From Actinomycetota bacterium (GTDB lineage Bacteria; Actinomycetota; Actinomycetes; Actinomycetales; Kineosporiaceae), in the NCBI GenBank assembly GCA_030837505.1, contig JAUPKJ010000309.1:1-43263 (forward strand): DNA of 43,263 nt, given 5' to 3'. Below the pieces are notes generated by a model that saw nothing but the letters and a program-made list of their open reading frames with translations, searched no databases and was not told where the DNA came from. Position 1 is the stretch's first letter; each line of letters opens with the position of its first letter. Below are positions 7,471 through 41,333 of this stretch, piece by piece. The position numbers were made by a program, and so were the translations under genes.

Positions 7471-7496
7471 GACGTTCTCCTCGGTACTCTCCTCGG

Positions 7497-7730: not shown

Positions 7731-7766
7731 GGGGTTCTCCTTCTCCAACGGTTCGTACACATCAGG

Positions 7767-7796
7767 TCGGCCACATCGAGTTCGGCCACATCGAGT
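7767..7796. repeat. Two 15-base tandem repeats upstream of EIIB
   Basis: Two exact copies of TCGGCCACATCGAGT are followed by degenerate copies rich in CACAACGGG up to about 7865. They lie in the 207-base gap between nagA and the EIIB gene. No protein is supported here. Confidence 0.7.
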
Positions 7797-7937
7797 TCGC
7801 ACACGACGGGCTCGGGCCCGTCAGCCACAACGGGATCGGGCACAACGGGTGTCACGGGTCGGCCGCAGTGTCGGTCCTCGACCGGGGAATCGAACCCACG
7901 GTGGCTGATCCACAGCAGGCCGTCCACTGCGCCTCGT

Positions 7938-9242: not shown

Positions 9243-9307
9243 ATCGACTTCCTCTCCGGCGTTGACAAGAACCATCCGTGTCGCCCATTCTTTCGGGCCA
9301 CGAGGAC

Positions 9308-9327
9308 CGTACCAGTACGTACCAGTG
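9308..9327. repeat. Direct repeat CGTACCAGT in the nagA-gntR promoter region
   Basis: CGTACCAGTA and CGTACCAGTG lie head to tail, immediately before the dre-like site. They may be part of a second, degenerate regulator site. Confidence 0.5.
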
Positions 9328-9333
9328 TGGAAA

Positions 9334-9349
9334 AGTGGTCTGGTCCACA
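9334..9349. promoter_or_regulatory. dre-like operator for the DasR-type regulator
   Basis: AGTGGTCTGGTCCACA closely resembles the DasR responsive element ACTGGTCTAGACCACT of Streptomyces. It is a near-palindrome placed in the divergent gap between nagA and gntR, where DasR-family proteins usually bind. The expected ligand is a phosphorylated amino sugar. Confidence 0.8.
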
Positions 9350-9408
9350 GGGACGGCAGATACCTTCCCTCTGCCGTGACCGTCGTACGACACAGACCAG
9401 GAGCACAC

Positions 9409-10152: not shown

Positions 10153-10207
10153 GGCAGGACCCCACCGGAGAAGGCAGAACCCCTTTCCAATGGCCAGGAG
10201 GACAATG

Positions 10208-11440
10208 ATGACCGCAGATACTGCGACAGCCGGCCGACGCCGGCTGCCGGGACTGGCGTACTTGCAGAGAATCGGACGCAGCCTGATGCTGCCCATCGCG
10301 GCCCTGCCCGCGGCGGGACTGCTGCTGCGCGTGGGGCAACCCGACATGCTGGGCGAGCTGCCGGGTATGGCGGACACCGCCACGATCGTCGCTGCGGCCG
10401 GTGGCTCCCTGTTCGACCACCTGCCCCTGTTGTTCGCCGTCGGGGTCGCCGTCGGCCTGGCCAAGAAGGCCGACGGCTCCACTGCCCTCGCCGCTGTCGT
10501 GGGCTACCTGGTCTTCAACGGCGTGACCGACGCCATGTCCCCGATCATCCTGGGCGAGCCCGCGGAAGGGGCCGAACAGGAACTCATCAACTACAGCGTC
10601 CTCGGCGGGATCGTCATCGGGATCACCGCTGCTCTGCTGTGGCAGCGGTACTACCGGATCAAACTGCCCAGTTATCTGGCGTTCTTCGGTGGAAGGCGTT
10701 TCGTCCCGATCGTGACGGCCTTCGCAGCGATCTTCTGGGGGGTCGCGCTCTCCTTCATCTACCGCGGATTCGACACCCTGCTCACCGATTTCGGCGAGGC
10801 CGTCACCGGCTCGACCATTCTGGGAGGATTCCTGTACGGGACCCTCAACCGGCTGCTCATCCCCCTGGGCCTGCACCACATCCTGAACTCCGTGGTCTGG
10901 TTCGTCGTGGGTGATTTCGACGGCAAGACCGGCGACCTCAACCGCTTCTTCGCGGGCGACCCCTCGGCAGGGGCGTTCATGACCGGTTTCTTCCCGATCA
11001 TGATGTTCGCCCTGCCCGCGGCGGCCCTGGCGATCTGGCACGAGGCCAAGGTGTCCCAGAGGAAGGTGATCGGCGGCATCATGCTCTCCGGAGCGCTCAC
11101 GAGCTTCCTGACGGGAGTCACCGAGCCGCTGGAGTTCTCCTTCATGTTCGTGGCGTTCCCCCTGTACGCGCTGCACGCCGTCCTCACGGGGACCTCCCTG
11201 GCCCTCGTCAACGCCCTGGGGATCAAGGACGGCTTCAGCTTCAGCGCGGGGTTGATCGACTATCTGCTCAACTTCAGCATCGCCACGAAACCGCTGTGGT
11301 TGATCCCCATCGGACTGGCGTACGCCGCCATCTACTACGTCCTGTTCCGAGCAGTGATCAGACGTTGGAACCTGCGGACCCCCGGCCGCGAGGACGACGA
11401 CATCGATGTCGGCGAGGAAAAGGCGGGCACCACGGTCTGA
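10208..11440 (+). CDS. PTS EIIC permease, N-acetylglucosamine type
   Basis: A 410-residue integral membrane transporter. The N-terminus LAYLQRIGRSLMLPIAALPA and the loops GLHHILNSVVWF and GVTEPLEFSFMFVAFPLY are signature segments of the glucose-family EIIC; the HHILNS form is typical of GlcNAc permeases. About eight to ten hydrophobic segments are visible. No EIIB or EIIA domain is fused; they are encoded separately at 7497-7730 and 7003-7470. The ATG at 10208 is chosen for AGGAGG six bases upstream; ATG codons at 10205 and 10190 are in frame. It ends at a strong terminator. Confidence 0.93.
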   Translation: MTADTATAGRRRLPGLAYLQRIGRSLMLPIAALPAAGLLLRVGQPDMLGELPGMADTATIVAAAGGSLFDHLPLLFAVGVAVGLAKKADGSTALAAVVGYLVFNGVTDAMSPIILGEPAEGAEQELINYSVLGGIVIGITAALLWQRYYRIKLPSYLAFFGGRRFVPIVTAFAAIFWGVALSFIYRGFDTLLTDFGEAVTGSTILGGFLYGTLNRLLIPLGLHHILNSVVWFVVGDFDGKTGDLNRFFAGDPSAGAFMTGFFPIMMFALPAAALAIWHEAKVSQRKVIGGIMLSGALTSFLTGVTEPLEFSFMFVAFPLYALHAVLTGTSLALVNALGIKDGFSFSAGLIDYLLNFSIATKPLWLIPIGLAYAAIYYVLFRAVIRRWNLRTPGREDDDIDVGEEKAGTTV

Positions 11441-11467
11441 GGACCTCGGGACCCTCCGGGTCGCGCC

Positions 11468-11511
11468 GCGCCGACGTCCTCCGCCGTTCCCTCGGCGGAG
11501 GACGTCGGCGC
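11468..11511. terminator. Bidirectional terminator between EIIC and the CPBP gene
   Basis: A perfect 19-base-pair stem, left arm GCGCCGACGTCCTCCGCCG, loop TTCCCT, right arm 11493-11511. It sits between two convergent genes. Confidence 0.88.
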
Positions 11512-11517
11512 TGTCGT

Positions 11518-12756
11518 TCAGCTCTCCCGACCGGGGCTCGGAGCGCCGCTGGAACCATGCGCAGGGGCGCCGGCCACATCGGGGGACACGGCGTCGTCGG
11601 GGGCGGCCCAAGGGCTCGACCCCGGGAGGGTCCATCCTCCCTGGGACACGGCCGAGGGGAGGGGCACGGCCTCCTCGACCGGTCCGGCGGGTTCTGGGAG
11701 TTCGGCGGGTTCTGGGGGTTCGGCGGGTTCTGGGGGTTCGGCGAGTTCTGGGAGCTCTGGGAGCGTGAGGGGCCGGGCGCCGGGCGTGCCTGCGGTCGGA
11801 GCGGGGCAGAATGCCCTGCCGGTCGCGTGCGAGGCCCGGGCGCCGCGGACTTCGGCGGGCTCGCCGGTGCGTTCCAGGTTCCGGCGGGTGGCCAGGCGCA
11901 GGACGGCGACGGCGAAGAGCGTCAGGACGATCGCGTCGACGGCGGCCATCTGCCAGGAGGAGTCTGCGGCCGTCTCCTGCGAGCCCAGTTCACCGAAGGC
12001 TGCGGACATGACGAAGCCGACCAGGTTGTTGACGAAGTGCAGGGCCAGGGCCGCCTCCAGCCCTCCCGTTCGGATCGTCAACCAGCCTGTGAACAGACCG
12101 AACATCATCAGATCGATGACGCCCCAGACCGTTCCGAACCCGTGCAGGGACGTGAAGACGACGGCCTGTAACAGGAGAGCAGGCCAGATTCCCCGGTACA
12201 GGGATCCCATGGCCTGCAGGAGCCACCCTCGACAAATGAACTCCTCTGCGCTGGTCTGCAGGGGCAGCACCGGCAGGATCAGCGCCATCGCCAGGGCGAA
12301 CTCCCCCCAGGAGACCACATCGCCGTTCTCCTCCGCGCCGGAGCCCCCGGTGAGGGCCACGATCACGGCCATCAGGACCAGGGAACCGAACAACGCCCCC
12401 AGCGAGACCAGCAGACAGGTTCCCAACCAGCGCCACCGAAGGCTTCCCGTGACCGAGACGAGCGTCCCCGGACGACGGCACTGGATCGCCCACGCCGCGA
12501 ACAGGACCACGGGGATCCCCATTCCCAGCATGGCCAGACTCAGGGCAGTGTCCCCTGCATCGCCGAAACTCGGCAGGCCGTCCGGGCCCTCCGGGCGTCC
12601 GGCGGCGAGGCCGACCCCCCAGACCACGACGCTGAGGACCAGCATCCCTGCGAACCAGGTGAAGAAGACGAAGAATGTTCCCAGGACGGGTCGCCACCAG
12701 TGGTGACCCGGCGTTCGGGACAGGCGATGATAGGGGACGGCACCCGGAGCGCTCAT
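11518..12756 (-). CDS. CPBP-family intramembrane metalloprotease
   Basis: A 412-residue membrane protein with about eight hydrophobic segments. The CPBP (Abi/Rce1-like) motifs are present: EEFICRG (motif 1, EExxxR) followed by VVFTSLHGF (motif 2, FxxxH) and LALHFVNN (motif 3, HxxxN). Such enzymes cleave substrates within the membrane; the substrate here is unknown. The last 120 residues are a soluble proline/glutamate tail with a six-residue repeat (EPPEPA, ELPEPA), unusual for the family. The ATG at 12756 is preferred; a GTG at 12792 would add 12 residues. The stop is seven bases from the shared terminator. Confidence 0.88.
   Translation of the reverse strand: MSAPGAVPYHRLSRTPGHHWWRPVLGTFFVFFTWFAGMLVLSVVVWGVGLAAGRPEGPDGLPSFGDAGDTALSLAMLGMGIPVVLFAAWAIQCRRPGTLVSVTGSLRWRWLGTCLLVSLGALFGSLVLMAVIVALTGGSGAEENGDVVSWGEFALAMALILPVLPLQTSAEEFICRGWLLQAMGSLYRGIWPALLLQAVVFTSLHGFGTVWGVIDLMMFGLFTGWLTIRTGGLEAALALHFVNNLVGFVMSAAFGELGSQETAADSSWQMAAVDAIVLTLFAVAVLRLATRRNLERTGEPAEVRGARASHATGRAFCPAPTAGTPGARPLTLPELPELAEPPEPAEPPEPAELPEPAGPVEEAVPLPSAVSQGGWTLPGSSPWAAPDDAVSPDVAGAPAHGSSGAPSPGRES
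11691..11763. repeat. 18-base tandem repeat in the CPBP tail
   Basis: Three near-identical copies of GTTCTGGGGGTTCGGCGG run from 11691 to 11744 with a partial fourth. They encode the P-E-P-A-E-x repeats on the minus strand and keep the frame. Confidence 0.85.
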
Positions 12757-13029
12757 CCCCCTAGGATCACGGGTCCCGCCCCCGCCGCGCACAGCGGTAC
12801 ACCAATGGCGTTCGGAACAGGACTCGCCCGTTCTGCCCGGAGTCGAACGAACAGAGTTGCGGTGGCGAGATCACATTCCTAATGTCGAGTAGTCCGCCAT
12901 GTCGTCCGGGGTGAGGTCACCACGGACCTGCGAGGGAGCGACGTCATGGACTCATAGCTCGCTGTTCGGTCCCCGCCGGGCTGTCCGCTCCTGTCTGGCC
13001 GTCCGGTCCCTGTCGAGCGAGGAGGCACC

Positions 13030-27074: not shown

Positions 27075-27107
27075 GTGTTGTTCCGCCGCTCTTAAGTGTT
27101 GTTCCGC
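27075..27107. repeat. Direct repeat GTGTTGTTCCGC in a divergent promoter region
   Basis: GTGTTGTTCCGC occurs exactly at 27075-27086 and 27096-27107 (period 21, two helical turns) between the DJ-1 gene and the ABC operon. The spacing suits a regulator binding one face of the DNA. The regulator is unknown. Confidence 0.55.
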
Positions 27108-27152
27108 TGTAGTGTCGGCGGGCACCCTTTTACCCGACGGGAGCGAGGAACC

Positions 27153-28139
27153 GTGAGCGACGGGCAGCGGTCCGGCGAGGACGATCCGGCGAGGGCGTCC
27201 GAGGGAGCCGTGCTGCTGGTCGAGGGTTTGGTACGTCGTTTCGGCGACCTGACGGCCGTCGACGGCGTCGGTCTGCGGATCGAGGCCGGACAGACGTATG
27301 GCCTGCTCGGCCCCAACGGTGCTGGGAAGACCACGACGATCTCCATGATCGCCGGGTTGCTGCCGGCGGACGCCGGGACGATCAGCGTGCTCGGACGGCC
27401 CATGGGGCCGCGTGAGGTCGAGGTCAAACACCACATCGGACTGGTTCCGCAGGATCTGGCGATCTACCCGGAACTGACAGCCCGCGAGAACCTCGCCTTC
27501 TTCGGCCGTTTGCAGGGGATGCGCGGTCGGCAGCTGATCGAACGCATCGACGAGGTCCTGGACCTGATTGCCCTGTCGGATCGGGCCGACGATGCCACCA
27601 AGGACTACTCCGGGGGTATGAAACGTCGGCTGAACATCGCCGTCGGGCTCATCCACCGCCCGGCCCTGCTCATTCTCGACGAGCCGACCGTGGGGGTCGA
27701 CCCGCAGTCGCGCAACGCGATCCTCCGTTCCGTGGAGGCCCTCTCCGGCGAGGGGATGGCAGTCCTCTACACGACGCACTACATGGAGGAGGCCGCGCGA
27801 CTCTGCGACCGGATCGGGATCATCGACTCGGGCAGGATCCGGGCCGAGGGCACCCGCAGCGAGCTCATCACCCTCATCGGCGGGGTCGACACCATCCGTC
27901 TGACCGGTGCCGGGCCCGTCGAGGAGTCGGCCGAGGCCCTGAGGCTCCTGGAGGCGGTCGACAAGGTCGGGGTCGAGGGGCGTTGTCTGACCCTGACGGT
28001 GCACGACGCCCCCACGACCGTGGCGCAGGTCGTCACGACCGCGGCTCGTACGGGCCTGGCCCTCGACGAGGTCGAGATCGTACGACCCGATCTGGAATCG
28101 GTTTTCCTGCATCTGACGGGCAAAGCCCTGAGGGACTGA
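27153..28139 (+). CDS. ABC-2 type exporter, ATP-binding protein
   Basis: A 328-residue ATPase of the DrrA/CcmA group. Walker A is LLGPNGAGKTTT, the Q-loop LVPQDLAIYPELTA, the signature YSGGMKRRLNIAVGL, Walker B ALLILDEPTVGVDP and the switch histidine in YTTHYMEEA. A C-terminal domain of about 90 residues ends ESVFLHLTGKALRD, as is usual in drug and polyketide exporters. The start is the GTG at 27153 with GAGG four bases upstream. It heads an operon with two permease genes. The exported substrate cannot be told from sequence. Confidence 0.93.
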   Translation: MSDGQRSGEDDPARASEGAVLLVEGLVRRFGDLTAVDGVGLRIEAGQTYGLLGPNGAGKTTTISMIAGLLPADAGTISVLGRPMGPREVEVKHHIGLVPQDLAIYPELTARENLAFFGRLQGMRGRQLIERIDEVLDLIALSDRADDATKDYSGGMKRRLNIAVGLIHRPALLILDEPTVGVDPQSRNAILRSVEALSGEGMAVLYTTHYMEEAARLCDRIGIIDSGRIRAEGTRSELITLIGGVDTIRLTGAGPVEESAEALRLLEAVDKVGVEGRCLTLTVHDAPTTVAQVVTTAARTGLALDEVEIVRPDLESVFLHLTGKALRD

Positions 28140-28193
28140 ACGAGACAGGGACTGAACGAGACAGGGATTGTCGAACAGGGGCTGTCGAACAGG
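28132..28193. repeat. Tandem duplications spanning the ATPase stop codon
   Basis: GGGACTGAACGAGACA is present twice head to tail (28132-28147, 28148-28163); the TGA at 28137-28139 is inside the first copy. Two looser copies of GG(A/C)TGTCGAACAG follow to 28193. Confidence 0.8.
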
Positions 28194-28237
28194 CGGAACC
28201 GAAGGGCGAGGACGATGGCGAGGACGAGGAGGCCGGT

Positions 28238-29422
28238 GTGAGAGCACTGTGGATCATGACCTTCTCCGACCTGCGGCTGAACCTGCGAAACCGTTCGGTT
28301 CTCCTGTTCGCCCTCGTCATCCCCGCTTCCCTGATGACAGTCCTGTCCATCACCTACAACACGGGCGAGGCCACAGGGCTCACCGGCTCGCAGAGCCTGT
28401 CCCCGGTCTCGGTCGCGGCCGCGGTCCCCGAGGGCGACCGCCTCGGCACGACCCTCCTGACGGCCTTGACCCACCTGAACGACCTCGACATCGACGTCGA
28501 GCTGACCTCGGCGGATCGGGCCCGCGCCCTGGCAGGGTCCGGGGAGGCCGACCTCGCCCTCTTCGTTCCGGAGGGCTTCACCGACGCCGTGCGGGCCGGT
28601 CGGGGGCCGACGGTCAGCACCGTGCGGGCCGACGGGACAGGCGCCGAGGTCGAACTGCTGTTGTCGGTGATCGGCGGAACCCTCGAACAGTTCCACGACG
28701 GTGCCCTCGCCGCGAGGGCTGCCACGGCCGGAGGGGTGCCCGCCGCAGAACTCGACCAGGTAGCCCTGCAGGCGGCCCTGCGGGAACCGTCGGTCGCCTT
28801 CCTCGAGGGCCGGACCTCCTCCGAACAGTTGAGTGCCACCGGTGCCCTGGTGGCCGGTCAGGCGGGCCTGTTCCTCTTCTTCACCGTGGGCTTCGGCGTG
28901 CTGGCACTGGTGTCCGAGAGAGAGACGGGGACCTGGACCCGGTTGTGCTCCCTGCCCCTGAGGCCCTGGACGATCGTGGCTTCCAAGGCCCTGGTCAGTT
29001 ACGTCCTGGGGGTGGCTTCGACAGGGGTGTTGCTGACGGTCGGTATTCTGCTGCTCGACGTGGATTTCGGCGCCCCCCTGCCGATCGCGCTGCTCGTCCT
29101 GTGCGCCGTGGCGGCGGGCACATCGCTCATGTTCGTCGTCGCCCGCCTGGCCCGCACCGCGGAGCAGGCGAATCTGTTCCAGACGGCCCTGGCGATGATT
29201 CTCGGTCTGGCCGGGGGAGCATTCTTCCCCCTGAGCGTTTCCGGACCGCTGGACGCGATCCTTGACCTCAACCCGGTCGCGGCCTTCTCCCGCGGCCTGG
29301 GCATCACGTCCGGGGGCGGAGGCCCGACCGACCTGGGCGCCCCCGTGGCGATCCTGTTGGGGTCCGCCGCCGTGACGGCGGCCCTCTCGCTGCTGCTGCC
29401 CGACCGGGGGAGGGCGACATGA
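28238..29422 (+). CDS. ABC-2 type exporter permease 1
   Basis: A 394-residue membrane protein. An N-terminal membrane segment (VLLFALVIPASLMTVLSI) is followed by a roughly 190-residue extracytoplasmic domain, then five C-terminal segments with the ABC-2 permease pattern (VGFGVLALVSERETGTW, then RLCSLPLRPWTIVASKALVSY, then AMILGLAGGAFFPLSVSGPL). The start at GTG 28238 has GGAGG five bases upstream. The gene overlaps the next permease by four bases (ATGA). Together with permease 2 it should form a heterodimeric pore driven by the ATPase at 27153. Confidence 0.88.
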   Translation: MRALWIMTFSDLRLNLRNRSVLLFALVIPASLMTVLSITYNTGEATGLTGSQSLSPVSVAAAVPEGDRLGTTLLTALTHLNDLDIDVELTSADRARALAGSGEADLALFVPEGFTDAVRAGRGPTVSTVRADGTGAEVELLLSVIGGTLEQFHDGALAARAATAGGVPAAELDQVALQAALREPSVAFLEGRTSSEQLSATGALVAGQAGLFLFFTVGFGVLALVSERETGTWTRLCSLPLRPWTIVASKALVSYVLGVASTGVLLTVGILLLDVDFGAPLPIALLVLCAVAAGTSLMFVVARLARTAEQANLFQTALAMILGLAGGAFFPLSVSGPLDAILDLNPVAAFSRGLGITSGGGGPTDLGAPVAILLGSAAVTAALSLLLPDRGRAT

Positions 29423-30579
29423 GACCGGTCCTGGTGATCGCTGGGGTGGAGCTGCGCCGTCTGCAGCGCGACCGTTCGAACTACTTCTTCGTACTGGTGC
29501 TGCCCCTGCTGCTCGTCCTGGTGATCGGGGCGCAGTTCAGCGACGACAGCAACGGTCGGGTCGCCGTCGCCGGCGGGGAGAGCACCCTGCGCGAGAACCT
29601 CGTGCGTGCCCTGCGGGCGGACGACGTGGAGGTGACCGTGGCCTCCCCGCAGACCGTGCGTGAGAAGGTCGCCCGGGGGCGGGCCGACGTCGGGATCATC
29701 GTGTCGCCGCAAGCGGCCCGGGCCTTCGCAACGCAGGGCGACCTGGAGTTCACCCTCATCCCGGGGGTACGTTCGGATTCCCCGGCGTTGCTGCACCGGG
29801 CACGTTCCGTACTGTCCCGCCTGACGGTGCAGTCCGGGCAACTGGCGGCCTTGACGGACCGGGGAATGTCACGGGAAGCTGCGCGCTCGGCCCTGGCAGA
29901 CGCCGCGCAGTCCCTGCGGCGCCCCACCCTGGAGGTCGTCGACGTCGATGAGAGCGCCCAGGAGTTCTCCGGACTGGGCCAGTTCGACGTCGGTGCCCGA
30001 GGCCAGACCCTGTTGTTCGTCTTCGTCACCGCCCTGTCCGGGGCGTCAGCGCTCATCCGGACCCGGCGGCTGGGGGTCCTGTCCCGAACCCTGACCGCGC
30101 CCGTGAGCGCACGGCAGGTTTTCGCGGGACAGGCCCTGGGCCGGTTCGCGGTCGCGACCTTCCAAGCGGTCTACATCGTGCTGCTCACAGCAGTGCTCTT
30201 CGGGGCCGACTGGGGATCGCCCGGTCCTGTCCTGCTCGTCCTGCTCCTGTTCTCGGCGGTGGCGGCCGGAACGAGCCTGCTCATCGGCACCGTGGCAGAC
30301 TCGGACACCGTGGCCTCCGGCCTGGGGATCGGCCTCGGTCTGGTCCTCGCGGCCCTGGGCGGGGGGATGATCCCCCTGGAACTCTTCGGTTCGACCCTGC
30401 GTTCGGTCGCCCACCTCACCCCGCACGCCTGGGCCTACGACGCCCTCGCCCAGATCCGGGGGCACGGCGCGGGCGTGCTCGACGTCCTGCCCGAGCTGGC
30501 GGTCCTGGCGGTGATGGCCCTGGCCCTGCTGTCCCTGGGCACCTGGACCCTGCGTCGCAGCACAGCCAGGGGCCTGTGA
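29419..30579 (+). CDS. ABC-2 type exporter permease 2
   Basis: A 386-residue membrane protein with the same plan as permease 1: a first membrane segment (YFFVLVLPLLLVLVIGAQF), a large external loop (about residues 40-195), then five segments including LFVFVTALSGASALIRTRR, LSRTLTAPVSARQVFAGQAL and LAALGGGMIPLELFG, and the HLTPHAWAYDAL motif typical of the last loop. It overlaps permease 1 by ATGA, so the two are translationally coupled. The stop lies in an 8-base tandem duplication and only 13 bases from the convergent kinase gene. Confidence 0.9.
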   Translation: MRPVLVIAGVELRRLQRDRSNYFFVLVLPLLLVLVIGAQFSDDSNGRVAVAGGESTLRENLVRALRADDVEVTVASPQTVREKVARGRADVGIIVSPQAARAFATQGDLEFTLIPGVRSDSPALLHRARSVLSRLTVQSGQLAALTDRGMSREAARSALADAAQSLRRPTLEVVDVDESAQEFSGLGQFDVGARGQTLLFVFVTALSGASALIRTRRLGVLSRTLTAPVSARQVFAGQALGRFAVATFQAVYIVLLTAVLFGADWGSPGPVLLVLLLFSAVAAGTSLLIGTVADSDTVASGLGIGLGLVLAALGGGMIPLELFGSTLRSVAHLTPHAWAYDALAQIRGHGAGVLDVLPELAVLAVMALALLSLGTWTLRRSTARGL

Positions 30580-30592: not shown

Positions 30593-33500
30593 TCAGCCCA
30601 TGGCCAGTTGGTCGCGGCCGGATCGTTTGGCACGGTACAGGTGCGCGTCGGCCTCCTCCACGAGACGCTCGGGAGCGGAATCCTGCGAAGGGAGGAGTGA
30701 AATTCCTCCGATGCTCACGGTGACGACGCCGAACGGCGACTCCTCGTGGGTCTGTTCCAAAGCGCGTACCGCCCGGCGGATCCGGTGGGCCACCACCTGG
30801 GCCGTGGCCGAGCCGACGTCGGGCAGCAGGACGAGGAACTCCTCCCCGCCGTAGCGGGCCACCAGGTCGGACGACCGCACGCAGTCGGCGATCGCCGCGG
30901 CCACCCGCCGCAGGCACTGGTCCCCGGCCGGGTGCCCGTACCGGTCGTTGTAGAACTTGAAATGATCGATGTCGATCATGAGGGCTGCCAGCGGGGCGTG
31001 GGTCGCGACGGCCGAATGCCACAGACTGTGCAGGATCTCCGTGAGTCGACGACGGTTGGCCAGCCCCGTCAGCGGATCGGTGTGGCTCAGCTCCGCGAGC
31101 CGCTCGTTGGCCAGGCCCAGCGCCTGCGTCCGCTCGGCCACCTTGCGTTCCAGCGAGGTGTTGAGCATCGCGTTGTCCAGGGAGACCGCCAATTGGCTCG
31201 CAATGAGTTGCACGCCGTCGAGCCCCTCGTCGCTGAAGGCCGCCCTGGCCAGCCGGTTCTCCAGGATCAGCACGGCCTTGAGAGCGCCCCGGGCGAGCAC
31301 CGGCACGACGAGAACCGAACAGCGTGCGACCCCGGTGAAGTGCGGGTCCCGCGAGAAACGTGTGTCCCGTACGGCGTCCTCCACGAGGAGGGTCTCGTGT
31401 TTGCGCTCGGCATACCGGAACATCGACAGGGGGATCAGACCCTGCCTGGCAGCCTCCTCGATCGGAACGGTCCCGCCCTCCTGCGTGTCCGAGGAGACGA
31501 ACCACTCCCGGGCCTCCTCGCTCCACAGCAGCAACCGCACGCTCGTCGCCCCGGTCAGGACGCTGAGAATCGTGATCACATTCCCGCGCAGGCGATCCAG
31601 GTCGATCTCCGAGATGATCTCCTGGGAGGCCCGAAGGACCCCCACCAGGTCCAACTGCGCGCCGATCCCACCGCTGTGCGAGGTGTCGGCGGACCGGCTC
31701 ACGTGCAGGCTGCCCGCCGTCGCCAGGCGTCCGGCCGACCTGGAACGAGCAGCCAGACCGGGGAACTCCTGCCGCATCAGTTCGACCTTGCCCGAGGCAC
31801 CCCACCGTTCGTAGGAGCGCAACGCCTCCTCCATCAGGAGCAGCCCCGTCCGTTCGAGCCCCGCCTCCCCCTGCAGCAGGCCCGAACGTTCCAGGAGGAA
31901 GGCCCTGTGCCAGGGACGGCGCCGATCCTCCACGGTGCGCAGCGCGGCATCGTAGATCTGCAGGGCCCGCAGGACGTCCCCTGTCGCGCGGGCCCGCTCG
32001 GCCTCGATGAGATTCTGCAGGTGCAGGAAGTTCTCCGGCTCGTCCTGCGCCCGCTCGGTGAGCCACGCCAAATGCTTGTCCAACTCCGCCAGCAGCTGCT
32101 CCCGGTCAACAGGTTCTTCCGGCGGACCGGATTCTTCCTGCTCCGCGGTCCCGGCCGGCACTTCCGAGCCGACAGCCTCCTCGCCGGAAGCCCCCCCGAT
32201 CTGACGCGCCAGGGCGAGCATGTGCACCAGACGGGTGAGGGTCATGAAGTACGAACCCTGGATGAACGGGACCAGGCGGGCGGCGATCGTCGCGTGCCGC
32301 ACGAGGACACCGTCGTCCCCCATGATCGCAGCGGTCAGCGCCCGCAGGGTGTGGAAGGTCGCGAAAGCGATCGGGTTCGTCCGCCGACTGTCCTGAACAC
32401 ACTCCTCCCGGAAAGAACTGTCGTCGAACCCTCCGGGGGTCTCTGCCATCCCCCGCAGCGCTCGCAGCAGTTGGCGATGAGCGGTGAAGGTCAGGGCGGA
32501 CTGGTCGTTGCCGATCTGTTCGCAGAAGGCCAGGGCCGCTTCGATCTCGACCATCACCTCGTCCAGATCGGGGGCGCAGTCGAACAGCCCGGGAATCGAA
32601 CTGGAATAGGTGTGGCTGGCGAAGTACAGGTCCCCGGACTGGACCAGTCCCTCCCTGGCCCGATGGGCGTGGCGGACGCTTTCCTCCACGGGCTCGAACC
32701 AGGCGGAACTGCTCAGGGAATACATGAAACGGGCCTGAGAGGTGTCCGGTTCGTAGCCCCGGGCCTCTCCCACGGCCAGGATCCGCCGCAGGATCCTGTT
32801 GCCCCTGGCGTGATCGGTGAGCACGGAATAGCTGCCCACCGGCCCCAACAGAGCGGGGGACGGTCCGTGTTCGATCCACAGCTTGACGGCCTGGGTGACC
32901 AGCCAGGCCATGGTCCCCTGGTCGACGAAGAATCCTGCCGGGATGATCCGGTTGATCGTCCTGGCAATGATTCGCAACTCCTGGGAGTCGTACTCGGGCC
33001 GTGCCAGGTCGTCCTCAAGCACCGTCTCGTCGATCCACCGTTCGAAGTCGCGTTTGAGCTCTGCGACCGTCGAAAGAAGCTCGGCCGGATCGGACGGCAT
33101 GGTCAGCCCGAGCCGTGCGAGCAGATCCAGGCCGAGATCTATGGCCTCGCTCGGGCGGTCACGGTTGATCAGACTGCTCACCTGGAGCCACAGGGCCTTG
33201 GCGAAATCGAACGGCTCCTCGGTCAGCTGCCGGAGACGTTCGAACACCATGTCGGCCTCCTCCAGGCGGCCGAGGCTGAACAGGGCGGAGTGCCGATCGG
33301 TCGCCAGCGACGTCACGAGGGCGACGGTCGCCGGATCGGCACCGGGCGGCACGATCAGATCCGGCGCCACGACGTCGATGGCCGCAGCGACGTAGCGCTC
33401 GGCCAGCGAGTGGTCGGCCATGGTCCGGGCCTCGGCCGCAGCGAGGCGGAAGAGGTCGGCAGCCGCCTGCCTCTCCGCAGGGTCGGACACCTCGTCGAAG

Positions 33501-35635
33501 GCGAACAAGTAGTGCTCGGCCGCGAAGTTCTCCAGGCCCGGGGTCGCGGCGAACCTGCGGGCCGCCTGCAGCCGCAGCTGTGCGAGCCGGGACAGGGACA
33601 TCCGTCCGAAGACCGCCTGCTGCACCCGGTCGTGACGGAAACGGACCGTCCCGTCGGGGCGGTCCATGACCAACAGCCCCTCCTCCAGGCACGGGGACAG
33701 CGCCTCCTGCACCTCCTGGACGAGCCGGTCGGCCGCTGCCCCCAGCCGTTCCAACGGCACCTCACCGCTCAGACAAGCCAGCCGCTCCACCATCTCCAGC
33801 GTCGAGGGGGGGAAATCGTCCAGGCGTTTGGTCAGGAGTTCCACGATGTCGCCTCGTCCGGGGTGGCCGTGGATCCCCTCGACGTCCCACTGCCAGCCCT
33901 GGGCCGTACGGGTCAGGGCGCCGTCCCGACGCAACTCGTTGAGCAGCTCCACCGTGTCGAACGGGTTGCCCCCCGTGCGCTCGCCGATCGTTTCCGCCAG
34001 GGGGGCGGCCTCTTCGGGCGCCATGCGCAGCATCTGGGCGAGCAGGTCAGTCAGGTGCTCCGTCGGAAGGTCCTCCAGGTAGATCCTGCTGGGGGCCACC
34101 CCGAGGCTGTCCCATCGACTCAGCATCGCCGTCAACGGGTGCGTCGGGCCGACCTCTGCGGCCCGGTAGGCCCCCACCAGCAGAACACCGGACAGATCCG
34201 GATCCGTCAACAGGCCGTCCAGGAGTTTCAGGGGCATGGGGCCGGCCCACTGCAGATCGTCCACGACCATGATGAGCGGCTGCTGGGGCGAGGCCACGAC
34301 CCGCAGCAGCTCTGCGGCCATCCGCTGCAATCTGGTCTGCAACATGGTTTGGTAGGTCGTGACCGACTCCGGGGCAACCCCCAGCAGGTCCCGTAGATCC
34401 GGATCCAACGCTGCGGCCAACCCGGCGTTCGGCCCCAGACGGATCAGGAGACGCTCGCGCAAGATTTTCAGCGCGCTGTCGCTCTCCGCCAGGAACAGCC
34501 GACTCACCCCGCGGAGCGCCTGGTACACCCCGTCGGACTCCTGTCCCCTGTGGTACTGGTCGAATTTGCCGCTCACGAACAGCCCACCGGCCTCGGTCAC
34601 CAGGGGACGCAGTTCGTCGAGCAGGGCCGTCTTGCCCACGCCCGGGGCACCCGTCACCAGGACGCTGCGCCGCAGTCCCGTCATGACGTCGTTGAACGCC
34701 TCGTCGAGCAGCGCGATCTGCTCGTCCCGTCCGACCAGGCGCGAGGGAGGCCGCAGCCGCAGGGGGAAATCCGTCTCGCCCAGGGGAAAGGCCGACAGCC
34801 GTGCCCCGGAACTCAGTTCCTCGCGCAGTCGGAGCAGATCGTGCGTCAACCCGTCCGCGCTCTGGTACCGCTCGTCGGGCTCCTTCTCCAACAGGCGCAT
34901 GACGATCGCCGACAGGGTCTCGGGGATTTCCGGACGTAGGTTCGACGGCGGGATCGGCACCCGGGCCAGATGGTCGTGGACGAGCTGGAGAGGGTCGTCC
35001 CTTCCGAACGGCGGCCTGCCCGTGAGGAACTCGTAGAGGGTGGCCCCCAGTCCGTAGAGGTCGGCTCGGGTGTCCAGGGGGCGCCCTGTGCGCCCCGTCT
35101 GTTCGGGCGCCATGTACGCCAGGGTTCCGACGATCTCGTTGTGGTGGGTGAACGAGGGACGTTCCTCCGCGAAGGTCGTGGCCAGATCGAAATCGATCAG
35201 TTTCAGTCGTCGCGGGGAAGACACCAGGAGGATGTTGCCGGGTGAGATGTCCTTGTGCATGACCCCGCGCCGGTGCACCGCGGCGAGGGTCTCTGCGAGC
35301 TGCGGGGCCAGGTCGAGGACGTCCTGCACCTCCATGGGCTCGGTCTGGCTCGGTCGGGGCACGGGTTCGGCGCCGTCGTCCTCCAGGAGCAGCCCGATGA
35401 AGGGCTGGGCGATGCGTGACAGCTGCGGGACGCCGTCCAGACCGCTCAGGCGCTCCAGGATCGTACGCTCGTGGGTGATCCTGGTCGAGGCTTCCCGGTC
35501 CAAGGGCTCCTTGAAGATCACATGTCCGCTGCGGTCGGCCAGGGGAATCCGTTGGATCCTGGTCTGAGAGCTTTCGTACAGCAGCTCCGCCTCGTCCTGA
35601 ACGAGCAGCCCCGCGATGTCGGCACTGCTGCCCAT
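30593..35635 (-). CDS. Ser/Thr kinase - AAA ATPase - GAF - GGDEF fusion (diguanylate cyclase)
   Basis: A 1680-residue cytoplasmic signalling protein. Residues 1-285 are a Hanks-type kinase with HKDISPGNILL (catalytic loop), LIDFDLAT (DFD in place of DFG), MAPEQTGRTG and DLYGLGATLYEFLTGRPPF; the glycine-rich loop is degenerate. Residues about 300-560 are an AAA domain (RLVGRDEQIALL; Walker A GAPGVGKTALL; Walker B LIMVVDDLQWAG). A helical region of about 700 residues follows, then a GAF domain (about 1345-1495) and a coiled-coil linker. The C-terminal GGDEF domain has DPLTGLANRRRL, the active site RYGGEEF and an RSSD inhibitory site five residues before it. GGEEF enzymes make c-di-GMP. The same N-terminal module is known fused to histidine kinases (HstK type). 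AGGAGG lies about 14 bases before the ATG. Confidence 0.92.
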   Translation of the reverse strand: MGSSADIAGLLVQDEAELLYESSQTRIQRIPLADRSGHVIFKEPLDREASTRITHERTILERLSGLDGVPQLSRIAQPFIGLLLEDDGAEPVPRPSQTEPMEVQDVLDLAPQLAETLAAVHRRGVMHKDISPGNILLVSSPRRLKLIDFDLATTFAEERPSFTHHNEIVGTLAYMAPEQTGRTGRPLDTRADLYGLGATLYEFLTGRPPFGRDDPLQLVHDHLARVPIPPSNLRPEIPETLSAIVMRLLEKEPDERYQSADGLTHDLLRLREELSSGARLSAFPLGETDFPLRLRPPSRLVGRDEQIALLDEAFNDVMTGLRRSVLVTGAPGVGKTALLDELRPLVTEAGGLFVSGKFDQYHRGQESDGVYQALRGVSRLFLAESDSALKILRERLLIRLGPNAGLAAALDPDLRDLLGVAPESVTTYQTMLQTRLQRMAAELLRVVASPQQPLIMVVDDLQWAGPMPLKLLDGLLTDPDLSGVLLVGAYRAAEVGPTHPLTAMLSRWDSLGVAPSRIYLEDLPTEHLTDLLAQMLRMAPEEAAPLAETIGERTGGNPFDTVELLNELRRDGALTRTAQGWQWDVEGIHGHPGRGDIVELLTKRLDDFPPSTLEMVERLACLSGEVPLERLGAAADRLVQEVQEALSPCLEEGLLVMDRPDGTVRFRHDRVQQAVFGRMSLSRLAQLRLQAARRFAATPGLENFAAEHYLFAFDEVSDPAERQAAADLFRLAAAEARTMADHSLAERYVAAAIDVVAPDLIVPPGADPATVALVTSLATDRHSALFSLGRLEEADMVFERLRQLTEEPFDFAKALWLQVSSLINRDRPSEAIDLGLDLLARLGLTMPSDPAELLSTVAELKRDFERWIDETVLEDDLARPEYDSQELRIIARTINRIIPAGFFVDQGTMAWLVTQAVKLWIEHGPSPALLGPVGSYSVLTDHARGNRILRRILAVGEARGYEPDTSQARFMYSLSSSAWFEPVEESVRHAHRAREGLVQSGDLYFASHTYSSSIPGLFDCAPDLDEVMVEIEAALAFCEQIGNDQSALTFTAHRQLLRALRGMAETPGGFDDSSFREECVQDSRRTNPIAFATFHTLRALTAAIMGDDGVLVRHATIAARLVPFIQGSYFMTLTRLVHMLALARQIGGASGEEAVGSEVPAGTAEQEESGPPEEPVDREQLLAELDKHLAWLTERAQDEPENFLHLQNLIEAERARATGDVLRALQIYDAALRTVEDRRRPWHRAFLLERSGLLQGEAGLERTGLLLMEEALRSYERWGASGKVELMRQEFPGLAARSRSAGRLATAGSLHVSRSADTSHSGGIGAQLDLVGVLRASQEIISEIDLDRLRGNVITILSVLTGATSVRLLLWSEEAREWFVSSDTQEGGTVPIEEAARQGLIPLSMFRYAERKHETLLVEDAVRDTRFSRDPHFTGVARCSVLVVPVLARGALKAVLILENRLARAAFSDEGLDGVQLIASQLAVSLDNAMLNTSLERKVAERTQALGLANERLAELSHTDPLTGLANRRRLTEILHSLWHSAVATHAPLAALMIDIDHFKFYNDRYGHPAGDQCLRRVAAAIADCVRSSDLVARYGGEEFLVLLPDVGSATAQVVAHRIRRAVRALEQTHEESPFGVVTVSIGGISLLPSQDSAPERLVEEADAHLYRAKRSGRDQLAMG

Positions 35636-36093: not shown

Positions 36094-39000
36094 TCAGTCC
36101 GGCCGGACGACGGCGACGAGGTCCCCGGCCTCCACCTGCCTCACGCCGCTCAACGACGGCTCTGCCACCGTTCCCGCCACAGGGGTCGTCAAGGTTGCCT
36201 CCATCTTCATGGCCTCGATGACCGCGACGGGTCTTCCGGCCTCGACCCTGTCCCCGACCTGCACGGTCATGGTGACCACCCCCGCGTAGGGGGCCGGGAC
36301 CTGACCGGGGTCGCCCGGATCGGCCCGCGGCACCTCGGCAGTCCGCGGGACGACGGACCGGTCCCGGACCTGGACCAGCCGCAGCCTGCCGTCGAGGGTG
36401 CACCAGACGGTGCGCATCCCCCGCTCGTCGGCCGGTCCGACGGCCTCCAACCCCACGGTGTTCCGTTCCCCGGGTCCCGTTTCGATCGTGTGTTCGACAC
36501 CGGGGCGCAGACCGTACAAGTGGTCGAGGGTGTGCAGGACCGTCGGATCGCCGTACCGCTCCCGGTCGGTGAGGAACTCCCCGGTCGGTCCGGGGAACAG
36601 CAGCCGGTTGAGCGCTCGGCGGGGGGCAACCCTCAACTCCGCTTCGTCGTCGGCCGTCAGCTCCACCACCCTCCGCGAGGGAAGAGCGCTCGGGGACTGT
36701 GCTCGTGGCCCCTGCGGGGGAAGGGCCTGCGGGGGAAGGGCCGGAGAGGGCTCGCGGCCGGCCAGGGCCCTGGTCCGGAACGGCTCGGGCCAGCCCCCGA
36801 CCGGGGTACCCAGCTCGCCCCGGAGGAACTCCACGACCGAAGCCGGCAGGTCGAGCCCCTGCGGTCGGCGGGAGAACACCTCGGGATCCGCCCCCACCGC
36901 CACCAGCTGCAGCGCGAGATCCCCCACGACCTTCGACGACGGAGTCACCTTGATCAGACGACCCAGGATCCGGTCCGCCGCCGCGTACATCTCCTCGATC
37001 TGTTCGAAACGATCCTCCAGACCGAGAGCTGTGGCCTGCTGCCGCAGATTCGACAACTGGCCCCCCGGGATCTCATGCCGGTAGACCCTGCCCGTCGGCG
37101 ACGACAACCCCGACTCGAAGGGCGCGTACAACCTGCGAACCGCCTCCCAATAGGGCTCCAGCGAACACACGGCGTCCAGGTCCAGGCCCGTGTCGTGCCG
37201 GGTATGGGCCAAGGCCGCGACCAGGGCCGACAGGGAGGGCTGGCTCGTCGTCCCCGCCAGGGGTGCCGCGGCGACGTCCACGGCGTCCGCGCCCGCCCGC
37301 ACCGCCGCCAGGAGCGTTGCCAACTGCCCCCCGGCCGTGTCATGCGTGTGGACCTGAACCGGGAGATCGAACTCCCGACGCAGCCCGCGGACCAAACGGA
37401 CCGCGGCCTCCGGACGCAGCAGCCCCGCCATGTCCTTGACCGCCAGGACATGGGCCCCGGCCCGCACCGCCTTCTCGGCCGTCCGCAGGTAGTGGTCGAG
37501 CGTGTACAGGTGTTCCCCAGGATCGAGCAGATCACCCGAGTAACACAGCGCGACCTCGGCCACCGCCGTCCCCACAGACCTGACCGCATCGATCGCAGGG
37601 CGCATTCGTTCGACGTCGTTGAAGGCGTCGAAGATCCGGAAGATGTCGATCCCCATGCGAGCAGCCTGTTCGACGAAGACCTCGGTGACCCGCGTGGGGT
37701 ACGGCGTGTACCCCACGGTGTTCCGACCGCGCAGGAGCATCTGCAGACACAGCGACGGCATGGCCTCGCGCAGGGCCGCCAGCCGTTCCCACGGATCCTC
37801 CCCCAGGAAACGCAGACAGACGTCGTAGGTCGCCCCGCCCCAGCACTCCACGCTGAGCAGCCCGGGCAACAACCCCTCCACCCACGGCCCCACCGCAGCC
37901 AGATCCCGGGTCCGCACCCGCGTGGCCAGCAACGACTGGTGGGCGTCCCGGAAAGTCGTGTCCGTGACGGCAGGGACCGGACGATGCCTCAGCGCGTTCG
38001 CGAACCCCGCCGGTCCCAGCTCGCACAGCAGCGACCGCCACCGGACCCCACCGGCCTCTCCTGCCCCCTCGGGGCGGTCCGGAAGCCTGTCACGGGGATC
38101 CGTGCAGGTCACCGGCTGCCCGTTGGGCCGGTTGACCGTAATGTCGGCCAGCCGGGTCAGTAGCCCCCCGGCCCGGTCGAAGCCCTGCGGCGGGGTCAGA
38201 ACCCCCGGATGGTCCTCGATGAACGCCGTGCTGAGCCGTCCCTGTGCGAAATCCTCCTGAGCGAGAACCGCCAGCATGAAGGGGATGTTCGTGGCCACCC
38301 CCGTGATCCGGAACTCGGCCAGGGCACGGCGGGCCCGGATCACGGCCGCCGACAGATCGGCGCCGTGGGCGACGAGTTTGACAAGGAGCGAGTCGAAATG
38401 CGGGTCTACCACGGCCCCCGTGTGGACGTTCCCGCCGTCCAGCCGGATCCCCGCGCCACCGGGCGACCAGTACCCCGAGATCACCCCGCTGTCCGGACGG
38501 AAACCGTCGGCGGGATTCTCCGTGGTGACCCGGCACTGCACGGCCGCCCCGCGCAGACGGATCGTCTCCTGGATCAGACCCAGATCGGCCAGGGTCTGGC
38601 CCGCGGCGATCCTGATCTGGGCCGAGACCAGGTCGACCCCGGTGACCTCCTCGGTCACGGTGTGCTCCACCTGGATCCTCGGGTTCATCTCGATGAACAC
38701 GTGTTCCCCCGCGCGGGGGCCGTCCGTGGCCAGCAGGAACTCGACCGTCCCCGCGTTGACGTATCCGATCTTCCTGGCCAGGGCCACGGCATCCGCGCAC
38801 AGCCGCTCCCGCAGCGCCGGAGCGAGCCCGGGCGCCGGCGCGACCTCCACGACCTTCTGATGCCGCCGTTGCACCGAACAATCCCGCTCGAAAAGGTGCA
38901 CGACTTCCCCCGTGCCGTCCGCCAGGATCTGCACCTCGATGTGCCGGGGCCGCGCCACCGCGCGTTCCACGAACATCGTCGGGTTGCCGAACGCGCCCTC

Positions 39001-39564
39001 CGCCTCGCGCATCGCCGCCCGCAGCGCGGCCGCAGCCCCTTCGACGTCGTCGACCCTGCGCATCCCCCGACCGCCGCCCCCGGCGACCGCCTTGACGAAC
39101 ACGGGCGTTCCGATCCGCCGCACCGCCTCCACCAGTTCCTCGACGTCCCGGGACGGTGCGCTGGACGCCAGCACCGGGACAGCGGCCTCCCGCGCGGCGG
39201 CCAGGGCCCGGACCTTGTCCCCGGCCACGGCCAGGACCTCAGCCCCGGGACCGATCACGGCGATCCCGGCGTCACGGCAGGCCCTGGCCAGCTCCGGGCT
39301 CTCGGACAGGAACCCGTACCCCGGATGGACGGCGTCGGCCCCGCACTCCCGGGCCACCCGGACGATCCGGTCGACGTCCAGGTGCGCGCGGACCGGGTGC
39401 CCGCGCTCGCCGATGAGGTACGCCTCGTCGGCCGTCCACCGGTGGACCCCGTTGCGGTCCTCCCAGCAGTACACCGCCACCGATCGAACACCCAGATCCT
39501 TCAGAGCACGGCACACCCGGACGGCAATCTCACCGCGGTTGGCCACCAGCACTTTTTCGAACAC
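36094..39564 (-). CDS. pyc: Pyruvate carboxylase
   Basis: An 1156-residue, full-length anaplerotic enzyme: pyruvate + HCO3- + ATP to oxaloacetate. Biotin carboxylase spans about 1-450 (KVLVANRGEIAVRVCRA; KAVAGGGGRGMR; HLFERDCSVQRRHQKVVE; EHVFIEMNPRIQVEHTVTEE). The carboxyltransferase domain spans about 530-830 (VTDTTFRDAHQSLLATRVRT; RIFDAFND; AVKDMAGLL; HTHDTAGG). The biotin carrier domain is C-terminal with EAMKMEA (biotinyl Lys). A small proline-rich insert with ALPPQ repeats lies before the carrier part. The GTG at 39564 has GAGGAG six bases upstream. It lies 155 bases behind the AAE transporter gene in the same direction and may be read from the riboswitch-controlled promoter; this is inference. 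Confidence 0.96.
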   Translation of the reverse strand: MFEKVLVANRGEIAVRVCRALKDLGVRSVAVYCWEDRNGVHRWTADEAYLIGERGHPVRAHLDVDRIVRVARECGADAVHPGYGFLSESPELARACRDAGIAVIGPGAEVLAVAGDKVRALAAAREAAVPVLASSAPSRDVEELVEAVRRIGTPVFVKAVAGGGGRGMRRVDDVEGAAAALRAAMREAEGAFGNPTMFVERAVARPRHIEVQILADGTGEVVHLFERDCSVQRRHQKVVEVAPAPGLAPALRERLCADAVALARKIGYVNAGTVEFLLATDGPRAGEHVFIEMNPRIQVEHTVTEEVTGVDLVSAQIRIAAGQTLADLGLIQETIRLRGAAVQCRVTTENPADGFRPDSGVISGYWSPGGAGIRLDGGNVHTGAVVDPHFDSLLVKLVAHGADLSAAVIRARRALAEFRITGVATNIPFMLAVLAQEDFAQGRLSTAFIEDHPGVLTPPQGFDRAGGLLTRLADITVNRPNGQPVTCTDPRDRLPDRPEGAGEAGGVRWRSLLCELGPAGFANALRHRPVPAVTDTTFRDAHQSLLATRVRTRDLAAVGPWVEGLLPGLLSVECWGGATYDVCLRFLGEDPWERLAALREAMPSLCLQMLLRGRNTVGYTPYPTRVTEVFVEQAARMGIDIFRIFDAFNDVERMRPAIDAVRSVGTAVAEVALCYSGDLLDPGEHLYTLDHYLRTAEKAVRAGAHVLAVKDMAGLLRPEAAVRLVRGLRREFDLPVQVHTHDTAGGQLATLLAAVRAGADAVDVAAAPLAGTTSQPSLSALVAALAHTRHDTGLDLDAVCSLEPYWEAVRRLYAPFESGLSSPTGRVYRHEIPGGQLSNLRQQATALGLEDRFEQIEEMYAAADRILGRLIKVTPSSKVVGDLALQLVAVGADPEVFSRRPQGLDLPASVVEFLRGELGTPVGGWPEPFRTRALAGREPSPALPPQALPPQGPRAQSPSALPSRRVVELTADDEAELRVAPRRALNRLLFPGPTGEFLTDRERYGDPTVLHTLDHLYGLRPGVEHTIETGPGERNTVGLEAVGPADERGMRTVWCTLDGRLRLVQVRDRSVVPRTAEVPRADPGDPGQVPAPYAGVVTMTVQVGDRVEAGRPVAVIEAMKMEATLTTPVAGTVAEPSLSGVRQVEAGDLVAVVRPD

Positions 39565-39719
39565 GACGAACTCCTCGACAGGAAAGAAACCGCAAGCCCC
39601 CGCAGGTCCTGGCGACGACGACAGAAGACGAGCGGGGCGAAGACCGAAGACACGGCGAGCACGGCGCGCAGAACGAGGCGCCGGTCGCTCCACGACAGGA
39701 AGGGGCCGACGAGGCCCGC

Positions 39720-41333
39720 TCAGAGGACGACGAGAACCTGCGCCAGAACAATCTTGGTGATCATGGCGATCGGGTAGACGAGCGTGTACCCGAGGGACAC
39801 GCGAGGATCGAACCCCGTACGGGTGTCCGAACAGGCCAGAACCGCCGGTTGGGTCTGGCTCCCCCCGAGAACCCCAGAGAGAGTCACGGGATCGACCCGG
39901 TGGACCTTCCTCTGGACCAGGACCAGCCCCAGGGCAGCCACGGCCGTGGTCACCGCCCCCAACAGGATCATCCGTGGACCCACGGACCCGCTGAGCGCTT
40001 CGGACACCGCCCCGCCGGCCTTCGTGCCGGTGCACGCGAAGAACAACAGGAGCCCCAGCGTGGACAAGGACGAGGCCGCCGTGTGCGACATGCCCGTGGG
40101 GATCCGACCCACTCGACCGATCCGGCCCAGGACCAGACCCATGACGAGCGTCCCCGCGGCACTGCCCACCGTGACGCTCCCCATCGGCAAGGGCACCGGG
40201 ACGAGCCCCAACAACAGGCCCAGGCAGAGCCCGCAGGCCAGACTCAACGGGTTGATGTCGGACAGGCCCCGTGAGGAGTCCCCCAACAGGGCGCCCACCT
40301 CGTCCAACCGCTCCCGGGGCGCGATCACCCGCAGACGGTCCCCCAGCTGGATCACCATCGAGTCATGGGCGAGCAGATCCACGTCCCCGCGGCGGACCCG
40401 GGTGACCGTCGCCTCGTGCCGGGCGTACAGATCCAGGTCTATGAGGGTCCGACCGGCCAACGACCCGTTCGACACGGTGATCCGACGCACGTCCACCTGG
40501 GAACGGTCCAGCACCAGGGAATCGGCCACCGGACGGCCGAGCCGGTCGGCCAGGGCCCTCAGGTCGTCGGCGCTCCCCACCGCCGCGATCAGGTCCCCCG
40601 TCCGCAGCTCCTGATCCGGGCCGGGAACCGTGACACACCCTCCGTCGGGACGCCGCAACCGGGACAGACGCACCAGGCCCTCGCGACAGGCGGGAAGATC
40701 CCCGATCCGGTGGACTCCGCGCTCGCCGATCTGGATGGTCATGGTGCGCAACACGGAACGGCCCGGGGCCGTGGCGGGGCCGCGTGCGGCGTCGTCGCGG
40801 GGAACACCTCGCAGCACGAGCATCGCGGCCACGACCATTCCGATCACCCCGAGGGGGTAGGCCAGGGAGTAACCCACGGTGGCGTCAGCGCCGTTCGGAA
40901 CGAGATCGTCGGCTGCGGCCAGGGCCGGCGTACAGGTGAGCGCTCCGGTGAGGACCCCGGCGATGTGTTGGGAGGACAGGCCGAGGGCGCGGCCGAACAC
41001 CACGCAACCCACGCCGGCCGCCACGAGCGCCCCGGCCGCCGTGAGCATCCGTGGCCAGGCAGAACTGACGGCCCCGAAGAACGACGGCCCGCAGGTCAAC
41101 CCGACGGTGTAGGTGAAGAGGACCAGGCCGAGTGTGGACAGGGCGGTCGGCAGGGCCAGATCGTGCCCCTGGGCGCTGCCGAGGGCCGAGAGGGCCATCG
41201 CCGTGAAGAGCACGGCGACCGGGCCTATCTCGACCCCGGCCACGTGGACCCTGCCGATCAGGGCACCGAAGGCCATGAGGACGAACAGCAGTACCAAGGG
41301 TTCGTCCTGCAAGAAACCGAAAACCGTCTTCAT
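39720..41333 (-). CDS. AAE-family transporter (aspartate:alanine exchanger / YidE-like)
   Basis: A 537-residue membrane transporter with the duplicated AAE plan. The N-terminal half has about five segments including VLFTYTVGLTCGPSFFGAVS and GVLTGALTCTPALAAA. Residues about 200-365 hold two TrkA_C (RCK_C) domains (VLRTMTIQIGERGVHRIGDL; VDVRRITVSNGSLAGRTLIDL). The C-terminal half repeats the fold (GLLLFFACTGTKAGGAV; LSGVLGGSQTQPAVLA; LGYTLVYPIAMITKIVLAQ). Family members exchange amino acids or dicarboxylates; this substrate is unknown. GGAGG lies seven bases before the ATG at 41333. A cobalamin riboswitch begins the transcript, so expression should fall when B12 is plentiful. Confidence 0.9.
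   Translation of the reverse strand: MKTVFGFLQDEPLVLLFVLMAFGALIGRVHVAGVEIGPVAVLFTAMALSALGSAQGHDLALPTALSTLGLVLFTYTVGLTCGPSFFGAVSSAWPRMLTAAGALVAAGVGCVVFGRALGLSSQHIAGVLTGALTCTPALAAADDLVPNGADATVGYSLAYPLGVIGMVVAAMLVLRGVPRDDAARGPATAPGRSVLRTMTIQIGERGVHRIGDLPACREGLVRLSRLRRPDGGCVTVPGPDQELRTGDLIAAVGSADDLRALADRLGRPVADSLVLDRSQVDVRRITVSNGSLAGRTLIDLDLYARHEATVTRVRRGDVDLLAHDSMVIQLGDRLRVIAPRERLDEVGALLGDSSRGLSDINPLSLACGLCLGLLLGLVPVPLPMGSVTVGSAAGTLVMGLVLGRIGRVGRIPTGMSHTAASSLSTLGLLLFFACTGTKAGGAVSEALSGSVGPRMILLGAVTTAVAALGLVLVQRKVHRVDPVTLSGVLGGSQTQPAVLACSDTRTGFDPRVSLGYTLVYPIAMITKIVLAQVLVVL

Follow-up and report, generated by a model that had tools for sequence, protein, structure and literature searches.

Cyanobacterial dual kinases of the HstK or cbSTKIII kind present an N-terminal Ser/Thr kinase, a GAF domain and a C-terminal histidine kinase (PMC2176072), and kinase and GGDEF hybrids with histidine kinases have been mentioned as well (PMC1183210). 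A C. thermocellum protein of 1826 aa with a kinase, six TPR and a GGDEF domain (gi 23020879) was listed in 2005, and a role in c-di-GMP production was deduced for such kinases (Krupa and Srinivasan 2005, PMC1262709). In a literature search that left most subscription journals outside its scope, apart from the entry in that 2005 list (PMC1262709), we found no work on a kinase-STAND-GAF-GGDEF protein, nor any account of a kinase-competent GGDEF protein and a pseudokinase GGDEF-EAL protein within one clade.

The gene considered in this work lies in the window (the whole stretch of DNA analysed, 43,263 nucleotides) and consists of one minus-strand ORF from ATG to TGA coding for 1680 aa, with AGGAGG 5' of the ATG. 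A Pfam search of the whole protein matched Pkinase (residues 98-266, E-value 6e-27), AAA_16 (299-487, 1.3e-28), GAF (1352-1486, 1.2e-7) and GGDEF (1517-1676, 2.6e-50), in the order that the original prediction had proposed for a single chain. The layout was as follows, all features being on the minus strand:

30593-35635 (-): whole gene, kinase / predicted STAND-type ATPase / helical region / GAF / predicted diguanylate cyclase (Pfam and relatives)
34811-35602 (-): Ser/Thr kinase-like domain, residues 12-275 (Pfam and alignment with relatives)
within 34811-35602 (-): kinase landmarks K42, E56, HKDISPGN (127-134), DFD (148-150) and APE (176-178)
34175-34741 (-): AAA_16 ATPase domain, residues 299-487 (Pfam and motifs)
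within the AAA_16 domain (-): Walker A GAPGVGKT (329-336) and Walker B MVVDDLQW (456-463)
33614-33643 (-): RFRHDRVQQA motif, residues 665-674, C-terminal to the ATPase, shared without change by the window protein and its relatives L067 and L068
31616-33565 (-): putative helical, TPR-like region, residues 691-1340 (low-confidence model, pLDDT 43.7)
31175-31615 (-): GAF domain, residues 1341-1487 (Pfam match 1352-1486)
31088-31174 (-): charged stalk between GAF and GGDEF, residues 1488-1516 (alignment)
30608-31087 (-): GGDEF domain, predicted diguanylate cyclase, residues 1517-1676 (Pfam and motifs)
30836-30850 (-): GGEEF site, residues 1596-1600
30866-30877 (-): I-site RSSD, residues 1587-1590, five residues before GGEEF

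By domain content, the window protein belongs with the HstK-like kinase/STAND-type ATPase/GAF proteins, a group whose output domain varies; it has the Pkinase, AAA_16 and GAF domains in this order within a chain of about 1500-2200 aa by which the group was defined here. It is not HstK proper, because its C-terminal output is GGDEF and no histidine kinase, with no match to HisKA or HATPase in Pfam at E 0.01. Assignment of the ATPase to the STAND type is suggested by AAA_16, the Walker motifs and further motifs typical of STAND proteins, the nSTAND models giving no match in the window protein at E 0.01. RFRHDRVQQA may be part of a STAND lid/winged-helix region.

The helical region (691-1340) had no Pfam match. 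Single-sequence structure predictions were of very low confidence, with a pLDDT of 34.7 for the kinase and 43.7 for residues 490-1345, which were mostly helix in a model too weak to define a lid or repeat fold. No transmembrane-like stretch was detected in the protein by a 19-residue hydropathy scan, whose maximum (2.04) was located within GAF. Identities in two relatives were higher for the kinase C-lobe (62 and 60%) than for the AAA (51 and 47%), GAF (53 and 50%) and GGDEF domains (56 and 54%); the stalk alone (29 residues, 72 and 55%) exceeded the C-lobe, and in one relative only.

GGDEF domains are activated by dimerisation, and STAND proteins switch by oligomerisation. We consider the window protein to be, with fair probability, a soluble, cytosolic diguanylate cyclase that belongs to the HstK-like kinase/STAND-ATPase/GAF proteins and is controlled by a signal, gated by ATP and phosphorylation and switched by oligomerisation. 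The helical region and GAF would bind a partner or ligand as sensors, the STAND-type ATPase would bind ATP and oligomerise, and phosphorylation by the protein's own atypical kinase would license this ATP-driven switch; the stalk could then bring two GGDEF domains together for c-di-GMP synthesis, which the RxxD site would halt once c-di-GMP accumulates. Domains, motifs, collinearity and the lack of a transmembrane-like stretch come directly from the sequence; the switching steps, the signal and the kinase activity are what we infer from them.

The main alternative concerns the kinase, which the original prediction had described as having a degenerate glycine loop and DFD, and as being either a scaffold or an atypical kinase. 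Both oddities were corroborated: a motif search found no glycine-rich loop (GxG) in the window kinase, and DFD stands at 148-150 where DFG was expected, after the catalytic loop HKDISPGN. In addition, the Pkinase match begins at profile position 92, so the N-lobe goes unrecognised by Pfam; K42 and E56 were placed in it by alignment, both being invariant in the window protein, L067 and L068, and the lobe was weakly conserved (46 and 35% identity in two relatives). These features count against the reading given above and would suit a pseudokinase scaffold, binding nucleotide or partners and regulating the ATPase without phosphorylating.

Against a scaffold, the window kinase retains all five catalytic residues scored, the Lys, the Glu, the Asp of HxD, the Asn and the Asp of DFx (K42, E56, D129, N134 and D148), and its plain-GGDEF relatives retain them too. 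The whole set was intact in 4 of the 10 members of the window clade (the window protein, L067, L068 and the Myxococcota-group L192), in 10 of 12 GGDEF proteins outside this clade and in 44 of 62 non-GGDEF relatives, where 10 of the 18 exceptions were a change of E to Q only and one (L206) was a cut row; the Bacillota-group L231 and L233 and other Bacillota rows were not tabled. By a loose regular expression, GxG was absent from 52 of the 61 non-GGDEF relatives whose N-lobe was aligned. DF is followed by G in 43 of the 62, and in the other 19 by S (13), D (3) or a different residue (3). As judged from these alignments, both oddities are common among non-GGDEF relatives, with histidine-kinase or cyclase outputs, and are not peculiar to the window protein; alone they are no proof of a dead kinase. 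The GGDEF proteins outside the clade mostly had GxG (10/12) and G after DF (11/12), the window clade had D in 8 members, E in one and T in one, and DFD was also found in the distant L231 and L233. Genome G003 has a second gene copy, spread over two contigs (L069, 1102-4470, and L070, 109-1917), and K, E, HRD, N and DFD were read by eye, unaligned, in the N-terminal part of this copy (L069). Because its five catalytic residues are intact, an atypical active kinase is favoured over a scaffold in the window protein.

The scaffold better fits the GGDEF-EAL members of the clade, L071-L076, which are proteins of ~2100 aa from the same taxonomic family as the window, sharing its clade on the kinase-ATPase tree and differing in an additional C-terminal EAL. 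Each of the six has lost at least three of the five kinase catalytic residues. In L071 and L073-L076, K42 is changed to R, E56 to S or A, N134 to V or T and D148 to N; in L072, K42, D129 and N134 are lost, K42 being replaced by E or V depending on the alignment. We regard them as candidate bacterial pseudokinases (L071, for instance, at 6452-12757 on the minus strand). The more distant EAL protein L077 also has a degenerate kinase, making 7 of 7 EAL-bearing proteins, which represent two or three lineages rather than seven events. Within L071 and L073-L076 the degenerate C-lobe was 83% identical, about as conserved as GGDEF (85%; helical region, 70%), as one would expect if the pseudokinase still works and is not decaying. 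L142 (3879-8936, plus strand), a GGDEF protein without EAL from another family of the phylum, has a degenerate kinase as well and no RxxD.

Walker A was found by regular expression in 10 of 10 clade members, and a Walker B of the DDLQW type in 4 of 10; Walker A and DDLQW were both kept in the window protein, L067, L068 and L192, whereas in L071 and L073-L076 DDLQW is replaced in the alignment by DSLQW or DSLHW, and HDRV by HERS, and L072 had DDLHL. Of the six EAL-bearing clade members, five therefore have both ATP-handling sites altered, in the kinase and in the ATPase. As the module persists in the GGDEF-EAL members although kinase catalytic residues are lost and Walker B is changed, neither activity need be required for output. 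For the window protein itself, taking all of this into account, the scaffold appears to us the less likely explanation, with a real chance nevertheless. We would also advance, tentatively, that kinase, STAND and GAF together form a chassis that serves as an exchangeable input platform, in which the cassette sets the roles of the enzymes: in a plain cyclase, a competent DFD kinase and the ATPase would license c-di-GMP synthesis, whereas with GGDEF-EAL, in related species, a conserved pseudokinase and an ATPase lacking one Asp of Walker B might steer allosterically, without ATP use, a potentially bifunctional enzyme that makes or breaks c-di-GMP.

The main tree was built by a careful method from the kinase, the ATPase and the following region (38 rows, several of them long-branched or of unusual composition). 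The window clade, including L192, was supported at 100/99; within it, six rows of the window's family (the window, L067, L068 and three EAL members) grouped at 100/100, and the three EAL-bearing rows included at 100/99. On this tree the GGDEF label requires 5 changes, at least 3 of them by starred branches, and 7 changes were needed on a quick 92-row tree. A single clade of all 15 GGDEF rows, a group defined once a first tree was known, was rejected (AU p 2.2e-5). In a GGDEF-only tree of 65 rows, whose comparison rows are biased because 40 of the 46 contig-scan loci were included and had been found through the window's own GGDEF, holding together the plain and EAL-linked GGDEF domains of the clade was also rejected (p 0.0099), which suggests that the output cassette has been exchanged within the window clade; L192 was not firmly placed with the window in this tree. 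Identities agreed with this exchange: the GGDEF of plain members was 50% identical to that of L192 and 38% to the EAL type, the kinase C-lobe being 49% identical in both cases.

As to the output domain, the signature residues of the window GGDEF (GGEEF, DIDHFK, NDRYGH and DPLTGLANRR) are all intact, and the proposed inhibitory site next to GGEEF was verified as RSSD, RxxD being present in 20 of the 23 GGDEF domains tabled. The domain is complete by motif criteria, GG[DE]EF and the metal/GTP residues being present, and should act as a diguanylate cyclase. GGDEF domains with degenerate sites can serve as receptors, and the retained I-site would be compatible with a c-di-GMP sensor or an inactive remnant, the kinase or the ATPase then being the real output; we consider this improbable, given the intact signature and the position of GGDEF among the better conserved domains of the protein.

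Fusion of two genes by frameshift or misassembly, conceivable in a draft genome of 4.5 Mb in 434 contigs, can be dismissed with near certainty, as two proteins from two other genera of the window's family align with it end to end at near-equal length (L002/L067, 1655 aa from the start codon, 49% identity; L003/L068, 1591 aa, 46% identity), GC3 remains at 0.84-0.89 in 12 of 12 blocks of 140 codons along the gene, leaving no frameshift signature, and the domain order is repeated in 24 proteins. The join of domains is thus real and not due to chance.

The gene looks free-standing and self-contained, because no conserved neighbour or operon partner was found beside the loci of nine relatives (9-20 kb) at E 1e-8; cross-matches between neighbours of these loci were discarded, since they came from frames overlapping the gene itself. 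In the window, an ABC ATPase and two ABC-2 permease-like frames occupy 27096-30576 on the opposite (plus) strand, convergent to the gene, and upstream, on the same minus strand, a pyruvate carboxylase-like frame ends at ~36094, 458 bases from it. In this open frame (~36097-40035, minus strand) residue 159 is the first of the biotin carboxylase domain, so the true start of the frame is probably internal. The source genome displayed 23 EAL matches plus further GGDEF frames. It also gave six WhiB matches, five of them above the cut-off; of 14 control genomes, Corynebacterium glutamicum alone was positive, which supports an actinobacterial origin.

With residues 560-1510 as query, matches at E<=1e-10 were obtained in 9 of 13 genomes of the window's family; among 396 genomes of the order the same query matched 9, every one from this family, and among 396 of the phylum it matched 7, counting the window's own genome. 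The 46 loci obtained in a contig scan aligned chiefly at their GGDEF end and included no full-length relative. A 12-sequence profile of the ATPase-to-GAF region was used for a wider search: in the window's phylum it matched 193 of 296 genomes at 1e-15, most of the matches listed covering the ATPase half only, and at 1e-60 it matched 42 of 117 genomes of the cyanobacterial phylum, 55 of 140 of the Myxococcota phylum and 26 of 249 of the Bacillota phylum. Full-length matches in these last three phyla indicated that the region between ATPase and GAF is homologous. Four loci were taken from the phylum profile search and three of them Pfam-scanned, two (L139 and L142) carrying GGDEF. Two relatives of the ATPase-to-GAF region lacked the kinase: L140 (4294-8724, minus strand), with a terminal domain that Pfam assigned to the class III nucleotide cyclases, and L141 (4761-9107, plus strand).

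Outputs were counted in the best loci only (at most 30 per search, with 1500-base flanks, some ending before the output domain). By Pfam, 24 proteins, encoded in 16 genomes of three phylum-level groups, had GGDEF in frame with the kinase and the ATPase. The window's phylum accounted for 20 of them, the Myxococcota group for 2 (L192 and L193; best 30 loci, 28 with kinase) and the Bacillota group for 2 (L231 and L233; best 30 loci). Seven of the 24 carried EAL (L071-L077), and the kinase of L142 and the GAF of L077 scored just under the Pfam cut-off. None of 34 cyanobacterial loci, all with kinase, had a GGDEF output. Among 62 kinase-bearing non-GGDEF relatives, 38 had HATPase_c in the last 520 aa, 33 had HisKA, 15 a class III cyclase and 3 SpoIIE. 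The original prediction, that the module occurs mainly in front of histidine kinases, held for these relatives; GGDEF is no exceptional output, and the possibility that no relative shared the architecture was discarded. The 24 GGDEF proteins, together with the class III cyclases in 15 of the 62, indicated that the module often drives second messengers. With a kinase-TPR-GGDEF protein listed in 2005 (PMC1262709), the architecture is not new.

Compared with the described systems, the window protein shares with C. thermocellum gi 23020879 an N-terminal Ser/Thr kinase, helical repeats, a C-terminal GGDEF and a similar length, and differs from it, by description only, in its ATPase and GAF, neither of which is named for that protein in its PMC1262709 entry. 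The open frames L231 (1817 aa) and L233 (1816 aa) fit that description, have DFD and are presumably kin to gi 23020879; unlike the window protein, they carry a PAS domain in addition, and their place in the tree is on a different branch. NCBIfam TIGR03903, a TOMM system kinase/cyclase fusion whose cyclase we take to be class III, matched residues 300-697 at 1.6e-35 overall, with 122 bits against a cut-off of 705.75, so the window protein is not a member. Cyanobacterial relatives such as L143, which probably correspond to the cbSTKIII of PMC2176072, share Pkinase, AAA_16 and GAF with it, the glycine loop being absent in both, whereas the dual kinases have a histidine kinase output in place of GGDEF. 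Proteins of this kind form a variant of a known sensor family that recurs and has been little studied; they join Ser/Thr phosphorylation and c-di-GMP, usually studied apart, in one chain, here in an actinobacterium with many c-di-GMP proteins; the kinase-competent cyclase and the pseudokinase GGDEF-EAL proteins of a single clade offer a natural comparison for the role of the kinase in giant sensors.
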